Assembly (NCBI GenBank): GCA_014762625.1
Contig: JABURQ010000191.1
Span: forward strand, 1 to 58,150
Length of the DNA: 58,150 bases
Source: Planctomycetaceae bacterium
GTDB taxonomy: Bacteria > Planctomycetota > Planctomycetia > Planctomycetales > Planctomycetaceae
Direction: 5' to 3'
Numbering within the stretch: position 1 is the first letter of the stretch; each line of letters opens with the position of its first letter. This document shows positions 303 through 54,511 of the stretch, piece after piece. Both the position numbers and the translations under genes were made by a program. The notes beneath the pieces are model-generated. The model worked only from the letters and a program-made list of their open reading frames with translations, searched no databases and had not been told where the DNA came from.

Positions 303-2261
303 TTATTCGCTCAAGTTCGTGATTGGGGTGAGTTCCAGATCCCGGAACTCGACTTCGGTTCCTTCGGCCTGTAACGCAATCTGCCCTTTTTTCGCAGTGC
401 AGTTCATGCCGTGATTCACTAGGTCATCGTTGACCCACACTTTAATCTCATCCCCAACGCATTCGACGATCATAGTGTTCCATTCGCCAGTCGGTTTTTC
501 TGAATTGTCTGTAAGATTGAGAATCCGTCGAGACTTACCTTCCGTAACGCCCCACGTTGCTTTCGGCCCGCGTCGTTCCACCATATTGGGAACGACGATG
601 TCTTCCCCACAGAGCCACAAATCTCCGGCGTTACCGGAATTCATTTGGACCTCTATTGATTGGGGATACCTTTTGTAGAGCGATCTCAGCTTTGAGACAT
701 GCACTGCTAGACCGCTGGCGCCGGATTTGCCGGCAAATCGGTATTCAAACTCAAGTCGATAATTTTCATATTGCTGGTCGGAAATCAGAAAGCCCCGGGG
801 ATACCCGAGAGTCACGAGTTGACCGTCACGGACGAAAAAGGTCGGTTTGTTTTCAGGATTGGGATCACCTTCTGGAACGTCGAGATGCCAGCCGGTGAGA
901 TCCTTGCCGTTAAATAAACTGTTGGCGATTGATTCTGGAGCCGGCTTTCCAAAATGCGGCGAGGTGGGATCTTCTTCCGGTTTCAGACGCTCGACGCGAA
1001 TGGCTCCCTCTACCAAATCTCCGGTGGGAATGATCGACGCCAATTCTCTGAGGCATTCCAGCTCGTTTCGTCCGAACTCCATTTCTACGACACCGACACG
1101 TGCTTTGAGATCGTCAGTGAGCACAAGTTCGGCGAACACATCAAGGCCTGTGATACTTGTCATGACTTCGGAGATCACGTTCCCGTTGGTCGCCGGATCG
1201 TATTTGGGAGGAGGAAGTTCGTAGGACTCTCCACCTCCCGCCAGCTGAAATCGCCGACTCGCGGTCGTCCCGAATGTTCTGGAGCGTCCGGTCGCTCCCA
1301 CCTCCCAGATCGCAATCAAGGCGGTTTTATCTTTGTCATCGTGAGCGAGCGTCACTCTGATCCCCAGAGAGCTCAGGCTCCGGTCTTCGAATTTCACCTT
1401 CAGCCAGTCGGTTCGTAACCAGGTCAGTTGGTCGAATTCGTCCTCATCTTTTTCGATTTTGTAGCGATGGCGGAATCGACGTTCGGAGGGGATCTTGATG
1501 ACGATCGCCTCGGATGCCGCTGGCTTGCCAGGTTTGGGAATCCCTTTGGCTTCACTCGTCGGGGTCAGTAATGCCAGTTCGCGCAGTCGAACTCGTTTTC
1601 CCACTTTGACGAGATGATTGATTTGCTCGCAGGAAATGGCAAAGTTGAGATTCTGGGATCCAAGCAGCGTGCTGCTATTGACGCCGACGACTTCCCCTTT
1701 GAAATTCAAGAGTGGTCCGCCGCTGCTTCCCGGTGAAATCGGGGTGCTGGTTTGCAGCCAGGTTCCACTCAAGCCCGGAGCGAACTCTTTTAATTCCTCA
1801 CCTTTACGAATGCCACTGACAATTCCCTCGCTGGCGGTAAAGGAAAGACCGCGTGGTGCACCGATGGCAATCGTTTTGTCCCCTTTTCTCGGCAGGGAAA
1901 TAGCGACCGGCAAAGCTGTTAACTTTTTGTTCGTCTCAATTTTCAGGAGCGCCAGGTCAAACGCCGTATAATGAGCGTTCCAACCGAGCACTTTGGCAGT
2001 CGTTTTATCTGCAAAGGTGACTACAGCCGATTCAGAATCTCCGACGACATGATAATTCGTCACGATCCACTTTCGTTCGACATCGACCACAAAACCACTT
2101 CCAATTCCCTGACTCCCGTCTTTATAGTTGACGTCAATACGCACACAGGCAGGCTCAGTTGTCTCGATCAAATCAGCCAGACTGAGTTCATCGGCTTGCA
2201 AATTGATCGGAAACAATCCCGCCAAATAGAGCAGACAGATGTGAAATAGAGTTCGATTCAT
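303..2261 (-). CDS. Exported trypsin-like serine protease fused to a DUF1080 domain
   Basis: 652 residues with a signal peptide (about 1-23). Residues 25-220 are an S1C/HtrA-like trypsin fold: catalytic His71 (T-N-Y-H-V-V), Asp102 (A-F-D-L-A-L) and Ser180 (G-S-S-G-G-P) are all present. There is no PDZ domain, unlike DegP. A middle region (about 235-450) is not recognised. The C-terminus (about 455-650) opens with L-F-N-G-K-D-L-T-G-W-H, the hallmark of DUF1080, a concanavalin-like fold now also called 3-keto-disaccharide hydrolase. The likely role is a periplasmic or surface protease held near carbohydrate by the C-terminal domain; that link is inference. It follows the two CBS genes by 34 bp and may share their transcript. 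Confidence 0.88.
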   Translation of the reverse strand: MNRTLFHICLLYLAGLFPINLQADELSLADLIETTEPACVRIDVNYKDGSQGIGSGFVVDVERKWIVTNYHVVGDSESAVVTFADKTTAKVLGWNAHYTAFDLALLKIETNKKLTALPVAISLPRKGDKTIAIGAPRGLSFTASEGIVSGIRKGEELKEFAPGLSGTWLQTSTPISPGSSGGPLLNFKGEVVGVNSSTLLGSQNLNFAISCEQINHLVKVGKRVRLRELALLTPTSEAKGIPKPGKPAASEAIVIKIPSERRFRHRYKIEKDEDEFDQLTWLRTDWLKVKFEDRSLSSLGIRVTLAHDDKDKTALIAIWEVGATGRSRTFGTTASRRFQLAGGGESYELPPPKYDPATNGNVISEVMTSITGLDVFAELVLTDDLKARVGVVEMEFGRNELECLRELASIIPTGDLVEGAIRVERLKPEEDPTSPHFGKPAPESIANSLFNGKDLTGWHLDVPEGDPNPENKPTFFVRDGQLVTLGYPRGFLISDQQYENYRLEFEYRFAGKSGASGLAVHVSKLRSLYKRYPQSIEVQMNSGNAGDLWLCGEDIVVPNMVERRGPKATWGVTEGKSRRILNLTDNSEKPTGEWNTMIVECVGDEIKVWVNDDLVNHGMNCTAKKGQIALQAEGTEVEFRDLELTPITNLSE

Positions 2262-47892: not shown

Positions 47893-50163
47893 CTACTTGT
47901 CCTTCAGATGCTTGCGGAAGAAGGTATCCGCGGTGTCGATGGCTTCGTCGAACCAGCGTTGTTTCCCGAGGAATGGGTGTGGGGCGTCGTCGATGACCGT
48001 TAAGCCGGTCGGGATGGTGAGGTTCTGCATCTGTTGTCGGAACAGGTCGGCGTGGGTGCTGGGATCGTCGTTTTCGCCGGTGATGAACCAGCAGGGAGGG
48101 TCGGATTTGTCGAGATGATACAGAGGAGAGGCGAGTTGGAAGGTCTCGGGTTTCTCGTCCAGTGATCCGCCGAGGAACTGACGCCAGATGGTGCCCCGAT
48201 CTTCGGCGGCGGAAATTCTTCGCGTCCGGTCGGAGAGGAAATCGGTCTGGGCACCCATCGGGACCGCCGCCTGGATGGCGCTGCTGAAGTCGGCGTTTCC
48301 GCCCGCGCCTTCAAGTTCTTTCACGCCGGACGATGTCGCGAGCAGGGCGGTCAAGTGACCTCCCGCGGAGAGGCCGATTGCTCCGATCCGGTCGGTGTCG
48401 ATACCGTATTCATCGGCATGGGCTCGCAGGAACCGGACTGCCGCTTTGCAGTCCTCTATCGCGGCGGGGAAAGGCGCCTCTCCGCTCAATCGATAGGAGA
48501 TGGTCGCCGCCACGTAGCCGCGCGCGGCGAGAGCCTGGGCGATTTTGCCGTGGCTGGTGCGGTTTCCGTTGGCCCAGCCGCCGCCGTGGATACAGACGAC
48601 AGCGGGTAACGCTCCCCAGTTCCCCTGCGGACGATAGAGGTCCATTTCCAGCGTGCGGTCGCCGTAACGGGCGTAGGTGACATCGAGTTTCTGATGAAGC
48701 TGGTCGAGGGTTTCGCGGGGGATTTCAGTGCGGCCGTCCGGACGCGGTGTGGAAACGATCCCCGGCGGTCGAGCGTCGAGTTGCATTTCCTCCTGAAAGA
48801 GAATCGCCATGCCGCGCAGCTTGCGGAGGATGTCGCGGTTCCGGACGAGTTCGGTTTCTCCCGGATCGTTTTCCAGATCGTACAGTTCGAGACTCGGATT
48901 CAGGTAGAGCTTCCAGTTTTTCCAGCGGACGGCCGCGAGGGCACCCTGGCTGCCGTGATAGAAGAAGGCGTCGTTATATTCGTGGCGGTTGATCAGGGGC
49001 GCCCATTCGCCGGGCGGTTCCCAGCGTCGGCGGAGCGGCACCGCGGCGTTGAGCGACATCTTCTTTCCGGGCGGGGGGACGGACTCGGTTTCTCCCGTGA
49101 GGAGCGGGCTGATATCGCGTCCGTCGATGACCAACTCTGGCGGGACTTCAATGCCGGCGAAGGTGGCGAGCGTCGGGTACCAGTCCATCGCGCGAACCAC
49201 CGCCGACGATTCCGCGCCCGATTGCAATCCGAGTCCCGGTCCCCAGGCGATCGCCGGAACGCGGATGCCTCCTTCGTAGGTGGAGAGTTTTCGTCCCTGG
49301 ATTTTCTGTTCGGGTGTGCGTCCCGGTCCGCGTCCGTTATCGGAGGCGTAGATGACGATCGTATTGTTGTCGAGTTTTAATTCTTTCAATTTGTCGAACA
49401 GCCGACCGACGTGGTGGTCGAGTTCCTGAATCGCGTCGCCGTACTCGCCCCAGTTGGAACTGCCGCGGAATGGTTCGCTGACGCCGAGAGGATTGTGGAG
49501 CATGGTGTGCGGCAGGTAGACGAAGAAAGGTTGTTCGCGGTGCTGCTCGATGAATTGGATCGCTTCATCGGTGTAGAGTCGTGTCAATTCGGCGGGATCG
49601 GCGGGGCGTTTGACGACGTTGTCGTTCCGCATCAGCGGGACGCCTCCTTGGTCCTCGAAGTAGACCACTTCGACCGGGTCGAGATTGTGGAGGAGGCCGA
49701 AATAGTGGTCGAAACCCTGGTTTTTGGGCAGAAACGGTTCGTGGAAACCGAGATGCCATTTCCCGATACAGGCGGTGGCGTAGCCGTTCTGTTGAAAGAG
49801 TTCGCCGAGCGTCAGTTCGTCGGGGTGGAGACCGGTTGGTGAATCGGCGCGATGGACCCAGATATGGTTACCGACACGACGGGGATAACAGCCGGTCAAC
49901 AGGCCCGCTCGCGAGGGACTGCAAATGGGCGCGGCGGCGTAGTAATCGGTGAAACGCGTTCCCTGTTGGGCCATGGCGTCGATGTGCGGGGTGTTGACTT
50001 CGGTCGCGCCGTAACAGCCGAGGTCGTAGTAGCCCTGATCGTCGACGAAGATGAAGACGACATTGGGGGGCGTCTTCTCCTCTGCCTGTAACCACGCGCC
50101 GCGAATCATCACCAGAGCGATCAGAAGGTAGAGGACGTTCGAGACGGAAGGTTTGCGGCGCAT
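47893..50163 (-). CDS. Exported sulfatase fused to an alpha/beta-hydrolase esterase
   Basis: 756 residues with a signal peptide (about 1-27). Residues 33-460 are a full S1 sulfatase: V-D-D-Q-G-Y-Y-D-L (Asp41, Asp42), formylglycine site C-S-P-S-R (Cys81), I-G-K-W-H-L and L-Y-D-L-E-N-D-P. Residues about 488-756 are a carboxylesterase of the BD-FAE/lipase type: oxyanion H-G-G-G (526-529), nucleophile Ser599 in G-L-S-A-G, acid near Asp699/Asp700 and His729 (P-H-P-F). Both active sites look intact. One polypeptide could thus remove sulfate and an acyl group from the same glycan. It is third in an operon after the DUF1553 and DUF1501 genes. Confidence 0.92.
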   Translation of the reverse strand: MRRKPSVSNVLYLLIALVMIRGAWLQAEEKTPPNVVFIFVDDQGYYDLGCYGATEVNTPHIDAMAQQGTRFTDYYAAAPICSPSRAGLLTGCYPRRVGNHIWVHRADSPTGLHPDELTLGELFQQNGYATACIGKWHLGFHEPFLPKNQGFDHYFGLLHNLDPVEVVYFEDQGGVPLMRNDNVVKRPADPAELTRLYTDEAIQFIEQHREQPFFVYLPHTMLHNPLGVSEPFRGSSNWGEYGDAIQELDHHVGRLFDKLKELKLDNNTIVIYASDNGRGPGRTPEQKIQGRKLSTYEGGIRVPAIAWGPGLGLQSGAESSAVVRAMDWYPTLATFAGIEVPPELVIDGRDISPLLTGETESVPPPGKKMSLNAAVPLRRRWEPPGEWAPLINRHEYNDAFFYHGSQGALAAVRWKNWKLYLNPSLELYDLENDPGETELVRNRDILRKLRGMAILFQEEMQLDARPPGIVSTPRPDGRTEIPRETLDQLHQKLDVTYARYGDRTLEMDLYRPQGNWGALPAVVCIHGGGWANGNRTSHGKIAQALAARGYVAATISYRLSGEAPFPAAIEDCKAAVRFLRAHADEYGIDTDRIGAIGLSAGGHLTALLATSSGVKELEGAGGNADFSSAIQAAVPMGAQTDFLSDRTRRISAAEDRGTIWRQFLGGSLDEKPETFQLASPLYHLDKSDPPCWFITGENDDPSTHADLFRQQMQNLTIPTGLTVIDDAPHPFLGKQRWFDEAIDTADTFFRKHLKDK

Positions 50164-50209: not shown

Positions 50210-51595
50210 TCAGGCGATCAACGGTGCGATCACTTTGCCGCCGAACTGGCTCAACTGTTTGAAGCGTCCGGCGTGATAGTAGGTCAGTTTGTTGTCGTCG
50301 AGTCCGAGCAGTCTCAGCAGAGTGACGTGGAAGTCTCGGACGTGATGGACTTCTTCGACTGCCGTCATGCCGGTTTCATCGGTGGCGCCGATGGTGTGTC
50401 CCGCGTTACAGCCGCCCCCCGCCATCCAGATCGTCATCGCGTTCGGGTTATGGTCGCGACCGTAGGCGGTCCCGCCGCGAATACCGTTATCGGGAGTGCG
50501 TCCGAATTCGCCGCACCAGACCAGGAGGGTATTGTCGAGAAGGCCGCGTTGCTTGAGGTCGGTAATAAGGGCGGCGATCGGTCGATCCACGCTGCGGACG
50601 AGATTGCCGTGCGCCCGTTCGATGTAATCGTGGCTGTCCCAGGTTCCTTTGTAGAGTTGGACGAAGCGGACTCCTTTCTCGACCATTTTGCGGGCGAGGA
50701 GACATTTGCGACCGAAGCCGTCGGTGGCGTCGTTGCCGATGCCGTACATCTCCAGCGTTTGCCGGCTTTCGCCGGAGAGATCGATGGCGTCGGGGACTTC
50801 GGTTTGCATGCGGTAGGCGAGTTCGTAGTTTTCGAGTCGGGCGGTCAGTTCGTCGTGTTGGGGGTGTTGTTCGGCGTGTCGCTGGTTCATGGTGGCGAGC
50901 AGATCCAGATTGCGGCGTTGCCGTTTCGGAGTGACGCCGCTGGGAGGCTGGAGATCGAGGATGGGTGAGCCGGTCGGTCGCAGCGGGGTTCCCTGGTAAA
51001 ACGCGGGGAGGTAGCCGTTGCTCCAGTTGGCGGCTCCGCCCTGGGGATAGGAGACTTCGGGGAGGACGATGAATCCGGGGAGGTCCTGATTCATGGAACC
51101 GAGGCCGTAGGTGACCCAGGCGCCGACTCCCGGATCGCCCCCGAAGCGATTGCCGCAGTTCATCTGGTACATGGCGGTGGGGTGATTGACGCTATCGACC
51201 TGACAGCCGCGGAAAAAGCAAAGCTCGTCGGCCACTTCGGCGAGATGCGTCCAGTTATCGGCCATATCGGCCCCGCTTTCGCCGTGCTGACTGAATTGGA
51301 AGGGACTCTGGACGTAATAGCGTTTGCCGCTTTCCATCGCCGACTTCTGCTCTCCCGCGCGCACAAATTCCTGGAGATGCAGATCGCGGAGGGCCGGTTT
51401 GGGATCGAAGGTGTCGATGTGCGACGGTCCCCCTTCCATCATCAGGAAGATGCAGTTGGTCGCTTTCGCGGGGAAATGACCGTCGCGCGGCGCCAGCGGC
51501 GCTTTCGCCTGTTGCTCTTCCGCGAGTAGCGAAGTCAAGGCGATGCTACCGAGCGAAGCGCCCATGCCGTACAGGAATTGTCTGCGATCGTTCAT
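50210..51595 (-). CDS. DUF1501 protein, Tat-exported
   Basis: 461 residues. GGAG lies eight bases before the ATG. Twin-arginine signal D-R-R-Q-F-L-Y-G at 3-10. DUF1501 is related to the alkaline phosphatase/sulfatase superfamily: M-M-E-G-G-P-S-H-I-D-T-F-D-P-K at the metal site, W-C-G-E-F-G-R-T-P and G-R-D-H-N-P. There is no sulfatase-type Cys. It is found next to DUF1549/DUF1553 genes in nearly all planctomycetes, yet its reaction is unknown. It lies 72 bp after the DUF1553 gene and 46 bp before the sulfatase-esterase gene. Confidence 0.92.
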   Translation of the reverse strand: MNDRRQFLYGMGASLGSIALTSLLAEEQQAKAPLAPRDGHFPAKATNCIFLMMEGGPSHIDTFDPKPALRDLHLQEFVRAGEQKSAMESGKRYYVQSPFQFSQHGESGADMADNWTHLAEVADELCFFRGCQVDSVNHPTAMYQMNCGNRFGGDPGVGAWVTYGLGSMNQDLPGFIVLPEVSYPQGGAANWSNGYLPAFYQGTPLRPTGSPILDLQPPSGVTPKRQRRNLDLLATMNQRHAEQHPQHDELTARLENYELAYRMQTEVPDAIDLSGESRQTLEMYGIGNDATDGFGRKCLLARKMVEKGVRFVQLYKGTWDSHDYIERAHGNLVRSVDRPIAALITDLKQRGLLDNTLLVWCGEFGRTPDNGIRGGTAYGRDHNPNAMTIWMAGGGCNAGHTIGATDETGMTAVEEVHHVRDFHVTLLRLLGLDDNKLTYYHAGRFKQLSQFGGKVIAPLIA

Positions 51596-51667: not shown

Positions 51668-54511
51668 TTAATACACATAAATAAATTCGTTCGAGTTGAG
51701 GATCACCAGGCAGAGATCCGACAAGGCACGCGTGTGGCGGTTGACGTCGTCAGGCTGGAGATCGGGGACAAAGTCATCGTTCGGGTAGAGCCGTTCCACA
51801 AACTGGAACTGCTCGCCGGTGTTTTCTTCGACCGCTTCCCGGACCACTTCGAGGGGGGGCGTCGGTCGATCTGGAGCGGTGTCGGGGATCAGGCGTTCGA
51901 TTTCTCGCCAGTGTGCCAGGCATTCCTCCAGTTCCGCCTCGGACGGTTTTCGCGACAGGCATAACTCGAAGCAGCGACTGACGGCCGCCCGGTCGCTCTC
52001 GGTTTCCCGGAGTGCCCGGTCCGCGAGGGTCAGCGCGCGGGTATGGGTGTTGAGGCCGTTGAAGAGGGTGAAAACTTGCGGCGTGACGGTTGAGGTTTCG
52101 CGTCTTTCGCAGGAGAAGTCGGGGGAGGGGGTGTTGAAAACTTCCAGCGAAGGGGGAATCAAACCTCGCAGTCGCAACACATAGAGCGAACGGCGGTGTC
52201 GCTGTTCGGGGAGAGGGTTCGGAGTCCACGCCGCGGCGAAGGTGCCCATCACCATGCGGGGTTGGAGGGCGACTTCCTGATTGATTTCGGGCCGACACGG
52301 AATGCCTCCCAGAGTGGGGTTCAGTTCTCCCGTGACGGAGAGCATCGTATCGCGGAGTTCTTCGGCGCTCAGGCGACGCGGCTGGAAGACGGCGTAGCTG
52401 GTCCCTTCGGGATCCCGCTCGTCGAGCGATTTCGGATCGGGATGTTGCGTCGATCGGCAATAGGCGTCGGAGTTCATGATGTGGCGATGCAGGGCTTTGA
52501 TCGACCACCCTTCTTCGACAAACGTGGAGGCCAGCCAGTCGTGTAACTGAGGATGCGTCGGGCGTTTCCCCGTCGAGCCGAAGTTGTTCGGGTTGCCGGC
52601 GAGAGCCTGGTTGAAATGCCAGAGCCAGATTCGATTCACGATCGTACGTGTCGTCAACGGGTTTTCGGGATCGGCGACCCAGGCGGCGAAAGCGGCCCGT
52701 CGTCCTTCGATGGTTTGCGGGATGTCGGTTGATACCTGTTGGTCGATGACGCTGAGTGTGTCGGGGGGGACCGGTTGGCTGGGCGAGAAGGGATCGCCGC
52801 CGGTCAGGATGGCGGTTTCTTCCAGTTCCCCGGCTTGCAGAGGTTTCTCGGGGACACGGACGGGGGACATGACGCTTTTGACGGAGGGGGTTCGTCCATC
52901 GTAAACCGCCAGGGCGTACGGCTGATACCGGTCGAACTCCCAGCCGAGTCGCTGGAGTCCTTTGCGGGCGACGCGTTCGAGGCCGAACTGTTCGGGAGTG
53001 AAATCGACCAGCTTGGGCGGGTATTCATCTTCCCGGAATCCCGCGTTTCGCATCTGGTTGCGGGCGGCGTTGAAGATGCCGCTCTGCATTCCGTTGGCCA
53101 TCAGTTTGGCGACGGCTTTGTTCCACCGATCCGGGGAGAGATTCTGTCTTTCGTACCAAGCCTCGGCGTTCGTCAGCAGAATGCTATCGAGTTGCGCGAG
53201 GATTTTCTGATATTCGTGGCGTCGTTGGCGGAGATAGGCCTGTTCCTCGAATCCTGAGGTATTCTCCTCGGGAAGGAATTCGGCTTTTCGTTCCGCCAGT
53301 TGTGTGGTCGAGAAGACCGCCTGTATCGAATAGTAATCCCTGGTGGGGACGGGATCGAATTTGTGGTCGTGGCAGCGTGCGCATTGCAGCGAGTGGGCGA
53401 GAAAGGTTTCGCCGACGCTATTCGTGACGTCGTCCAGAAATCGTTGCCGGGCGACTTTGGCGACTTCCATGCCGGTCAGTTCCCACGGTCCCATCCGCAG
53501 AAATCCAGTGGCGATGATCTTTTCCGGATCATCGGGATCGATTTCATCGCCGGCGATTTGCTCGCGGACGAAGGCGTCGTACGGTTTGTCGTCGTTGAAG
53601 GCGCGAACTACATAATCACGATAACGCCAGGCGTTCCCGCGCTCGAAGTCGTTTGCGAATCCGGAGGAATCGGCGTAGCGAGTGACGTCGAGCCAGTGTT
53701 GCGCCATCCGTTCGCCGTAGTGAGGTGAATCGAGCAGACGATCAACGACCGCCGCGAACGCTTCCGCGTCCGGTCTCGGATCCTTCAGAAAGGCGTTCAC
53801 TTCCGCGGGCGTCGGCGGTAAGCCGGTCAGGTCAAACGTGGCTCGACGAAGGAGAGTCCGGCGGTCGGCGCGAGGAGCGAGTTCCAGGCCATCGGGAAGC
53901 GCCTGTTCGATCAGGACATCGATCGGATTTCTCTCTCCCTCGACTTCCACTTTCTCGACCGGTTGATAGGCCCAGAGCCCGGCGGGATCGTATTTACGGT
54001 TCGTCCATTCGTCGTCCAGACCGCCCGAGGTTTTCACGGGAATGCCGTCTTCGACCGACCACGCTTTTTCATATTCGGTTTTGATTTCCTGTTGTCGTTC
54101 TTCGTTCGGCCAGACGGCTCCCGAAGAGATCCAGTCGTGGAGCCATTGGAGTTGTTTCTCGTTGAGTTGTTCCGCTTCTTTGGGAGGCATGGCCGACCAG
54201 AAATCACTTTCGCGCGTCGCGGCCAGATACAGCGGGCTATTTTCCGGTTGGCCGACGACAATGGCCGGCTCTTCGCTATCGCCTCCGCGGAGGAGTCCCT
54301 TCGCGGAACGAACATCGAGCGAACCCTCGATCATGTCGGGGTCGTTGCCGTGACAGCCGAGGCATTTTTCACGGAGCAGGGGAGCCACCCGGCGGACGAA
54401 CAGGATTTCGGAGTCTTTGGTGCCGAGTTCCTGCGCATAACTGGCTGTACTACCTGCGAAGAAAACGATGATAGCCGCCAGGCAATTGAGGACCGGGAAA
54501 TCGAGCTTCAT
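51668..54511 (-). CDS. PSCyt1-DUF1549-DUF1553 multi-domain cytochrome-like protein
   Basis: 947 residues with a signal peptide (about 1-27). PSCyt1 (planctomycete cytochrome C) motif C-L-G-C-H (Cys50, Cys53, His54) is followed by M-P-P at 108-110, whose Met could be the distal haem ligand. DUF1549 (about 195-395) carries a second C-A-R-C-H (377-381) and R-A-T-F-D-L-T-G-L-P-P-T. DUF1553 (about 600-900) carries T-R-T-I-V-N-R-I-W and L-S-A-E-E-L-R-D. It probably binds one or two c-type haems in the periplasm. Its function is unknown; it always pairs with DUF1501, and it heads this operon. Confidence 0.93.
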   Translation of the reverse strand: MKLDFPVLNCLAAIIVFFAGSTASYAQELGTKDSEILFVRRVAPLLREKCLGCHGNDPDMIEGSLDVRSAKGLLRGGDSEEPAIVVGQPENSPLYLAATRESDFWSAMPPKEAEQLNEKQLQWLHDWISSGAVWPNEERQQEIKTEYEKAWSVEDGIPVKTSGGLDDEWTNRKYDPAGLWAYQPVEKVEVEGERNPIDVLIEQALPDGLELAPRADRRTLLRRATFDLTGLPPTPAEVNAFLKDPRPDAEAFAAVVDRLLDSPHYGERMAQHWLDVTRYADSSGFANDFERGNAWRYRDYVVRAFNDDKPYDAFVREQIAGDEIDPDDPEKIIATGFLRMGPWELTGMEVAKVARQRFLDDVTNSVGETFLAHSLQCARCHDHKFDPVPTRDYYSIQAVFSTTQLAERKAEFLPEENTSGFEEQAYLRQRRHEYQKILAQLDSILLTNAEAWYERQNLSPDRWNKAVAKLMANGMQSGIFNAARNQMRNAGFREDEYPPKLVDFTPEQFGLERVARKGLQRLGWEFDRYQPYALAVYDGRTPSVKSVMSPVRVPEKPLQAGELEETAILTGGDPFSPSQPVPPDTLSVIDQQVSTDIPQTIEGRRAAFAAWVADPENPLTTRTIVNRIWLWHFNQALAGNPNNFGSTGKRPTHPQLHDWLASTFVEEGWSIKALHRHIMNSDAYCRSTQHPDPKSLDERDPEGTSYAVFQPRRLSAEELRDTMLSVTGELNPTLGGIPCRPEINQEVALQPRMVMGTFAAAWTPNPLPEQRHRRSLYVLRLRGLIPPSLEVFNTPSPDFSCERRETSTVTPQVFTLFNGLNTHTRALTLADRALRETESDRAAVSRCFELCLSRKPSEAELEECLAHWREIERLIPDTAPDRPTPPLEVVREAVEENTGEQFQFVERLYPNDDFVPDLQPDDVNRHTRALSDLCLVILNSNEFIYVY

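Follow-up and report, generated by a model that had tools for sequence, protein, structure and literature searches.

A sulfatase and a BD-FAE esterase joined in one apparently exported planctomycete protein

Overview

We identified a gene in which a sulfatase and a BD-FAE-type esterase, both with their catalytic residues in place, are encoded in a single frame within a 58,150-nucleotide stretch of Planctomycetaceae DNA (the whole stretch is called the window below). The product is probably an exported enzyme whose two domains remove the decorations of a glycan that is both sulfated and O-acylated. This interpretation, first put forward in the first-pass annotation, appears plausible in outline from the sequence, and the joint action of both domains on one doubly decorated polysaccharide is a proposal.

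Gene and domain architecture

The open reading frame begins with ATG and contains no internal stop (Table 1). A full-length match to the sulfatase profile (PF00884, 8.2e-60, residues 33-338, profile positions 1-301 of 301) is followed in the same frame by a BD-FAE match (PF20434, 1.7e-50, residues 507-700, profile positions 1-201 of 215). Both scores lie far above the Pfam cut-off, and the C-terminal half was also matched, more weakly, by other alpha/beta-hydrolase profiles. The sulfatase half, of the formylglycine type (SulfAtlas S1), carries the motifs CSPSR, GKWHLG, and SDNG, starting at residues 81, 134, and 274, and the esterase half HGGG (526-529), GLSAGG (597, with Ser599), GENDDP (696), and HPF (729), His729 lying C-terminal of the PF20434-matched stretch. 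We take the sulfatase residues examined below to have metal-binding or catalytic roles, and the HGGG, G-x-S-x-G, Asp, and His elements to play their usual parts in BD-FAE proteins, with Asp699 of GENDDP presumably the acid of the triad. The protein is apparently exported by a putative Sec signal, because its N-terminus is hydrophobic by eye and forms a helix (residues 7-24) in the predicted structure. The first-pass annotation had described two active sites in one exported protein; both domains do lie in this frame, the export signal being putative, and Cys81 in CSPSR, HGGG, Ser599, and His729 all stand at the positions that it gave.

Table 1. Coordinates of the fusion gene, its parts, and its upstream neighbors in the window
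Feature	Position	Strand	Remarks
Sulfatase-esterase fusion gene	47893..50163	-	756 aa
Putative Sec signal peptide, residues 1-30	50074..50163	-	Judged by eye
Sulfatase catalytic domain (PF00884), Cys81 in CSPSR	49150..50067	-	Pfam
Inter-domain linker, about residues 466-487	48703..48768	-	Sequence variable, length nearly constant
BD-FAE domain (PF20434): HGGG526, Ser599, probable Asp699	48064..48645	-	Pfam and motifs
DUF1501 gene (PF07394)	50210..51595	-	Upstream, co-directional, 46 bp from fusion gene
PSCyt1-PSCyt2-PSD1 gene (PF07635, PF07583, PF07587)	51668..54511	-	Upstream, co-directional

Predicted structure and nearest solved relatives

An AlphaFold2 model built from 59 sequences (mean pLDDT 93.0, pTM 0.79) shows two whole domains connected by a short linker, the esterase half being modeled confidently; an earlier model from 45 closely related sequences (pLDDT 70.5, pTM 0.50) was not used. 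Against solved sulfatases, the sulfatase half superimposed over 385-398 residues at an rmsd of 2.1-2.3 and Z 44-45 (ranks 1-12); human arylsulfatase A, PsS1_19B, and others were tied in Z, and the nearest structures span several subfamilies. Because of these ties, and with none of the best 50 rows more than 36% identical, neither a subfamily nor a substrate can be read from the fold. Sulfatases filled the best 50 rows of either fold search, which span residues 30-470, and no esterase was among them. By sequence, the nearest solved relative of the esterase half is Lip_vut4 (6nkf, 1.1e-31), followed by an acetyl xylan esterase (6xyc, 1e-25), a carbohydrate esterase (6tkx, 1.1e-25), and a bifunctional GH43-CE protein (6mly, 2.5e-25). 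On the strength of the names of these relatives, acetyl may be weakly favored over feruloyl as the acyl group.

Occurrence of the fused form

The contig search kept 77 loci, 67 of which (L009-L075) are matches of at least 70% identity and were sorted into classes by hand from their frames. Both domains occupy one frame in 44 of the 67 (43 complete, plus L021, which is 5'-truncated at a contig edge), the sulfatase stands alone in 9 (L055-L059, L061-L063, and L075, the last 5'-cut), and in 3 (L066-L068) it is followed by a different tail. Another 9 loci are cut by a contig end and were left uncounted (3': L046, L048, L050, L053, L072; 5': L054, L060, L069, L071), and two were counted as neither fused nor split: L042, whose frame is broken by a single stop, and the 5'-truncated L074, which contains four stops. 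Records holding the same proteins were left out (L087 = L014, L088 = L021, L090 = L073, L091 = L050), and L086 is the window itself.

Judged by record titles, fused copies occur in Planctomycetota and Verrucomicrobiota, mostly in metagenome-assembled genomes with a few strains; Stieleria tagensis, Rhodopirellula europaea, and Roseiconus nitratireducens are among the records not marked as metagenome-assembled. Across 99 genomes (the window's own included, up to about 10 candidates scored per genome), near-full matches were identified in at least 5 (its own, G001, G006, G039, and G032), and the matches listed also include a copy in G052 whose 3' end runs off the contig, a close relative in G060 with the sulfatase only, and esterase-only relatives in G023, G002, and G096. 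A search of 392 genomes of the phylum, scored at two candidates per genome so that esterase-only copies could be missed, gave 8 genomes with matches at E up to 1e-120, 5 of them full-length (its own included) and 3 sulfatase only. The sulfatase-BD-FAE order, whose spread the first-pass annotation had proposed to check, is thus the form of most related loci yet patchy across the phylum.

Sulfatases and BD-FAE proteins of the same genome

The genome that carries the window (G000) has at least 128 PF00884 matches, with 150 of 202 candidates scored, and 6 matches to PF03781 (FGE-sulfatase). By eye, 19 distinct PF00884 stop-to-stop frames exceed 600 aa, a length that alone is no proof of fusion. 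Two frames of 1125 and 1072 aa (C99:26373-29210 and C138:3189-5696) contain two sulfatase matches each and are apparent tandem sulfatase fusions.

Among the 19 BD-FAE matches listed for this genome, only the gene in the window shares its frame, by coordinates, with one of the listed sulfatases. Three other BD-FAE frames exceed 600 aa, and the Pfam scan found no sulfatase in any of them: the first has BD-FAE behind a gluconolactonase-like (SGL) domain (C52, L121:466-2238), the second has BD-FAE followed by a GDSL-esterase domain (C101, L123:196-2262), and the third, scanned to the limit of its locus, is another esterase with a partial BD-FAE match. Sulfatase fusions had been called rare in the first-pass annotation; for sulfatases in general this is weakened by the 19 long PF00884 frames and published counts (PMC4807772), and it does stand for the sulfatase/BD-FAE pairing, at one of 19 BD-FAE matches.

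Split variants and history of the fusion

Standalone sulfatases 69-80% identical to that of the window were identified at L055-L059, L061-L063, L075, and L092. One of them, L055, is titled Acidiferrobacteraceae (Pseudomonadota); its sulfatase groups within a clade whose other members are verrucomicrobial, and it has the PSD1-sulfatase-DUF1501 order in common with them, so the contig is probably misbinned. Esterase-only relatives comprise L093, an esterase 78% identical that by eye seems to begin with a signal peptide of its own, L095, and L094 (1477-2664, G002, the genus of the window), in which the esterase is kept at 68% identity, most of the sulfatase domain is missing, and CSPSC replaces CSPSR; L094 reads as a decayed fusion. 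At L066 (6306-7109), L067 (7336-8127), and L068, a tail of about 260 aa takes the place of the esterase behind sulfatases 72% identical to that of the window. A serine protease, considered for these tails from their SAAHTF and GDSGA motifs, was unsupported by Pfam or the PDB: the tails of L066 and L067 had no Pfam match at E up to 1, and that of L067 had one chance-level match only against the PDB (E 0.28).

The tree of the sulfatase half was made by a quick method, and of its 74 inner branches 35 are open and 20 are starred. It requires 10 changes of the label "fused", of which starred branches force 4 or more, and 8 of the label "sulfatase only", of which 3 or more are forced. A starred clade of six members, five verrucomicrobial by title, holds five sulfatase-only copies and one fused copy (L031), and the fused copies L029, L044, and L051, titled Verrucomicrobiota, fall among planctomycete copies on unstarred branches, where binning errors are possible. 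The sulfatase-only L092 branches first, with a support of 89 and a long-branch warning, so that the fusion may or may not be ancestral; in the later branches domain loss would be the simplest reading. On the tree of the esterase half, 8 of 60 inner branches are starred, the outgroup branches are very long, and no branch separates the outgroup from the rest; there, L093 (unstarred) and L094 (starred, beside L014) fall among fused copies. Either domain can apparently be lost or kept alone, and since close relatives carry one domain by itself, coupling of the two would not be obligatory and the domains seem to be used modularly. Within the planctomycete and verrucomicrobial sulfatase repertoire, the gene may be seen as a modular element that probably moves horizontally.

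Proposed function

In the mechanism that we propose, Cys81 would be converted to formylglycine by one of the FGE-like proteins of the same genome, and the formylglycine would hydrolyze a sulfate ester. Ser599, Asp699, and His729, with HGGG as the oxyanion hole, would hydrolyze an O-acyl ester, most likely acetyl, and the fusion would bring both activities together to the same pool of oligosaccharides.

The fusion might instead be a convenience of secretion or expression, in which case the domains would work independently, or on different substrates, and their linkage would carry no catalytic meaning. Since the domains can exist apart, it may be no more than co-secretion, a reading that we regard as possible though somewhat doubtful. 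It is favored by the loss of either domain (of the 67 loci, 9 have just the sulfatase and 3 have another tail behind it, and L093, L094, and L095 are esterase-only), by the many changes of the "fused" label on the sulfatase-half tree, including those forced by starred branches, and by the joining of BD-FAE to two other enzyme domains in the same genome, where this domain evidently pairs readily. However, the fused form is the commonest, at 44 of the 67 loci, and the length of the linker is near constant across records from two phyla. The family is well defined for testing whether a single protein takes both sulfate and acyl groups off sulfated glycans, and its sulfatase-only and esterase-only close relatives offer natural controls that make a test of coupling feasible.

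Gene neighborhood

In the window, the PSCyt/PSD1 gene, the DUF1501 gene, and the fusion gene follow one another in one direction, separated by 72 and 46 bp. The window also encodes, within 22 kb (17393-39055), an OprB porin, a glucuronyl-esterase-like protein, six more sulfatases, and a GH43-like (GH43/DUF1961) protein whose GH43 score is just over the cut-off; another sulfatase was identified on 33 of the 67 related loci. Elsewhere in the window (303-2261, minus strand), a trypsin-like domain is joined to a 3-keto-disaccharide hydrolase domain (PF13365 and PF06439).

A DUF1501 gene at 60% identity or more was identified on 17 of the 67 loci (66-86% found, the 86% match of L040 covering residues 414-456 only), with other DUF1501 genes there at 29-58%, and PSD1-like matches were present on 16 of these 17, L040 being the exception; the Roseiconus copy, L064, has DUF1501/PSD1 genes beside it. 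Counting only loci with enough flank, the linked DUF1501 occurs on 13 of 45 that have 5 kb or more upstream and on 11 of 34 that have 5 kb or more on each side. The DUF1501/PSD1 linkage is therefore a minority condition, missing from most loci with sufficient flank. Freshwater Verrucomicrobia have been reported to carry sulfatase genes close to PSCyt genes, the function of PSCyt being given there as unknown (PMC5615132). It is conceivable, although we hold it unlikely, that PSCyt/PSD1, one DUF1501 lineage, and the sulfatase, with or without esterase, form a conserved cassette that moves horizontally, and that its cytochromes oxidize the same sugar that the fused enzyme strips. If that were true, the enzyme would give PSD1/DUF1501 pairs a concrete link to a substrate; the linkage in part of the family is in any case a lead on the uncharacterized DUF1501 and PSCyt/PSD1 proteins.

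Conservation of both halves

We compared catalytic residues across 45 fused homologues, made up of 44 complete sequences (43 of the 67 loci and L089) and L021. The sulfatase residues D41, D42, C81, R85, K135, H137, H219, H223, D275, N276, and K292 and the esterase residues H526, G527, G528, S599, D699, D700, and H729 are identical in all 45, and they are also invariant in the alignment of the window with the 44 complete homologues, to which it is 71-79% identical; P83 of the CSPSR signature is kept in 44 of 45. Among 13 sulfatase-only or other-tail relatives, one of them cut before C81, H219 is replaced in 3 (L066-L068).

Across 46 sequences (1035 pairs), mean pairwise identity is 0.51 in the linker (about residues 466-486) vs. 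0.82 in the sulfatase half and 0.73 in the esterase half, which makes the linker, for all its steady length, the least conserved stretch. In the 14 closest of the 1035 pairs, dN/dS ranges over 0.035-0.129 for the sulfatase half and 0.057-0.151 for the esterase half; these pairs are not independent, with several from one clade, dS near 1 in many, and the window in none. Taken together, the kept residues, the less conserved linker, and the low dN/dS in close pairs argue that both halves of the fusion family are under constraint.

This agrees with the claim of the first-pass annotation that both halves keep their catalytic residues. An inactive domain in close homologues, one of two findings that it had named as telling against the fusion, was sought, and the checked residues were present in all 45 fused homologues compared. 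That one domain is catalytically dead and serves as a binding module is accordingly very improbable: the gene in the window offers no support for it, the relative L094 does have a decayed sulfatase part, and both the identity of the checked residues and the low dN/dS of both halves stand against it. The other, a junction made by assembly or frameshift error, can be dismissed almost outright, since we found nothing in its favor (L042 is the copy with an in-frame stop among the 67 loci) and the same junction recurs in 44 other aligned sequences from many records, including some not marked as metagenome-assembled.

Comparison with known systems

The literature searches made found no paper on BD-FAE together with a sulfatase and no description of this sulfatase/BD-FAE family; the joining of a sulfatase to an esterase is already in print in general terms. 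Going by length, Kim et al. (2016) put the number of multi-domain sulfatase genes at an estimated 34 and 21 in the planctomycetes P1 and P2, and they named esterase/lipase among the partner domains (PMC4807772). These resemble the gene in the window in joining a sulfatase to other domains, but in the part of that paper concerned with them, the esterase/lipase fusions are given without gene, subfamily, or catalytic residues, and their identity with the family of the window cannot be said. Fusions of sulfatases with GH10, GH32, and GH29 domains are on record as well (PMC6388578).

The sulfatase half has the same fold as the solved sulfatases human arylsulfatase A, PsS1_19B, and S1_16 9fo1 (Z 42-45, with 33-36% of 376-398 residues identical), but those solved chains, 444-483 residues long, have no esterase half. 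The esterase domains of 6mly, 6xyc, and 6tkx are homologous by sequence, but they are single or joined to GH43, with no sulfatase named. P36 of Formosa agariphila, in which an S1_25 sulfatase and a GH78 rhamnosidase are described as acting in consecutive steps of ulvan breakdown (PMC8511951), is like the fusion protein a multimodular sulfatase with two catalytic domains in one polypeptide; it differs in that its partner is a glycoside hydrolase, and its sulfatase (6hr5) is 28% identical in the structural alignment. Set beside these systems, the fusion looks like a further case of the known planctomycete and verrucomicrobial habit of fusing sulfatases to carbohydrate enzymes.
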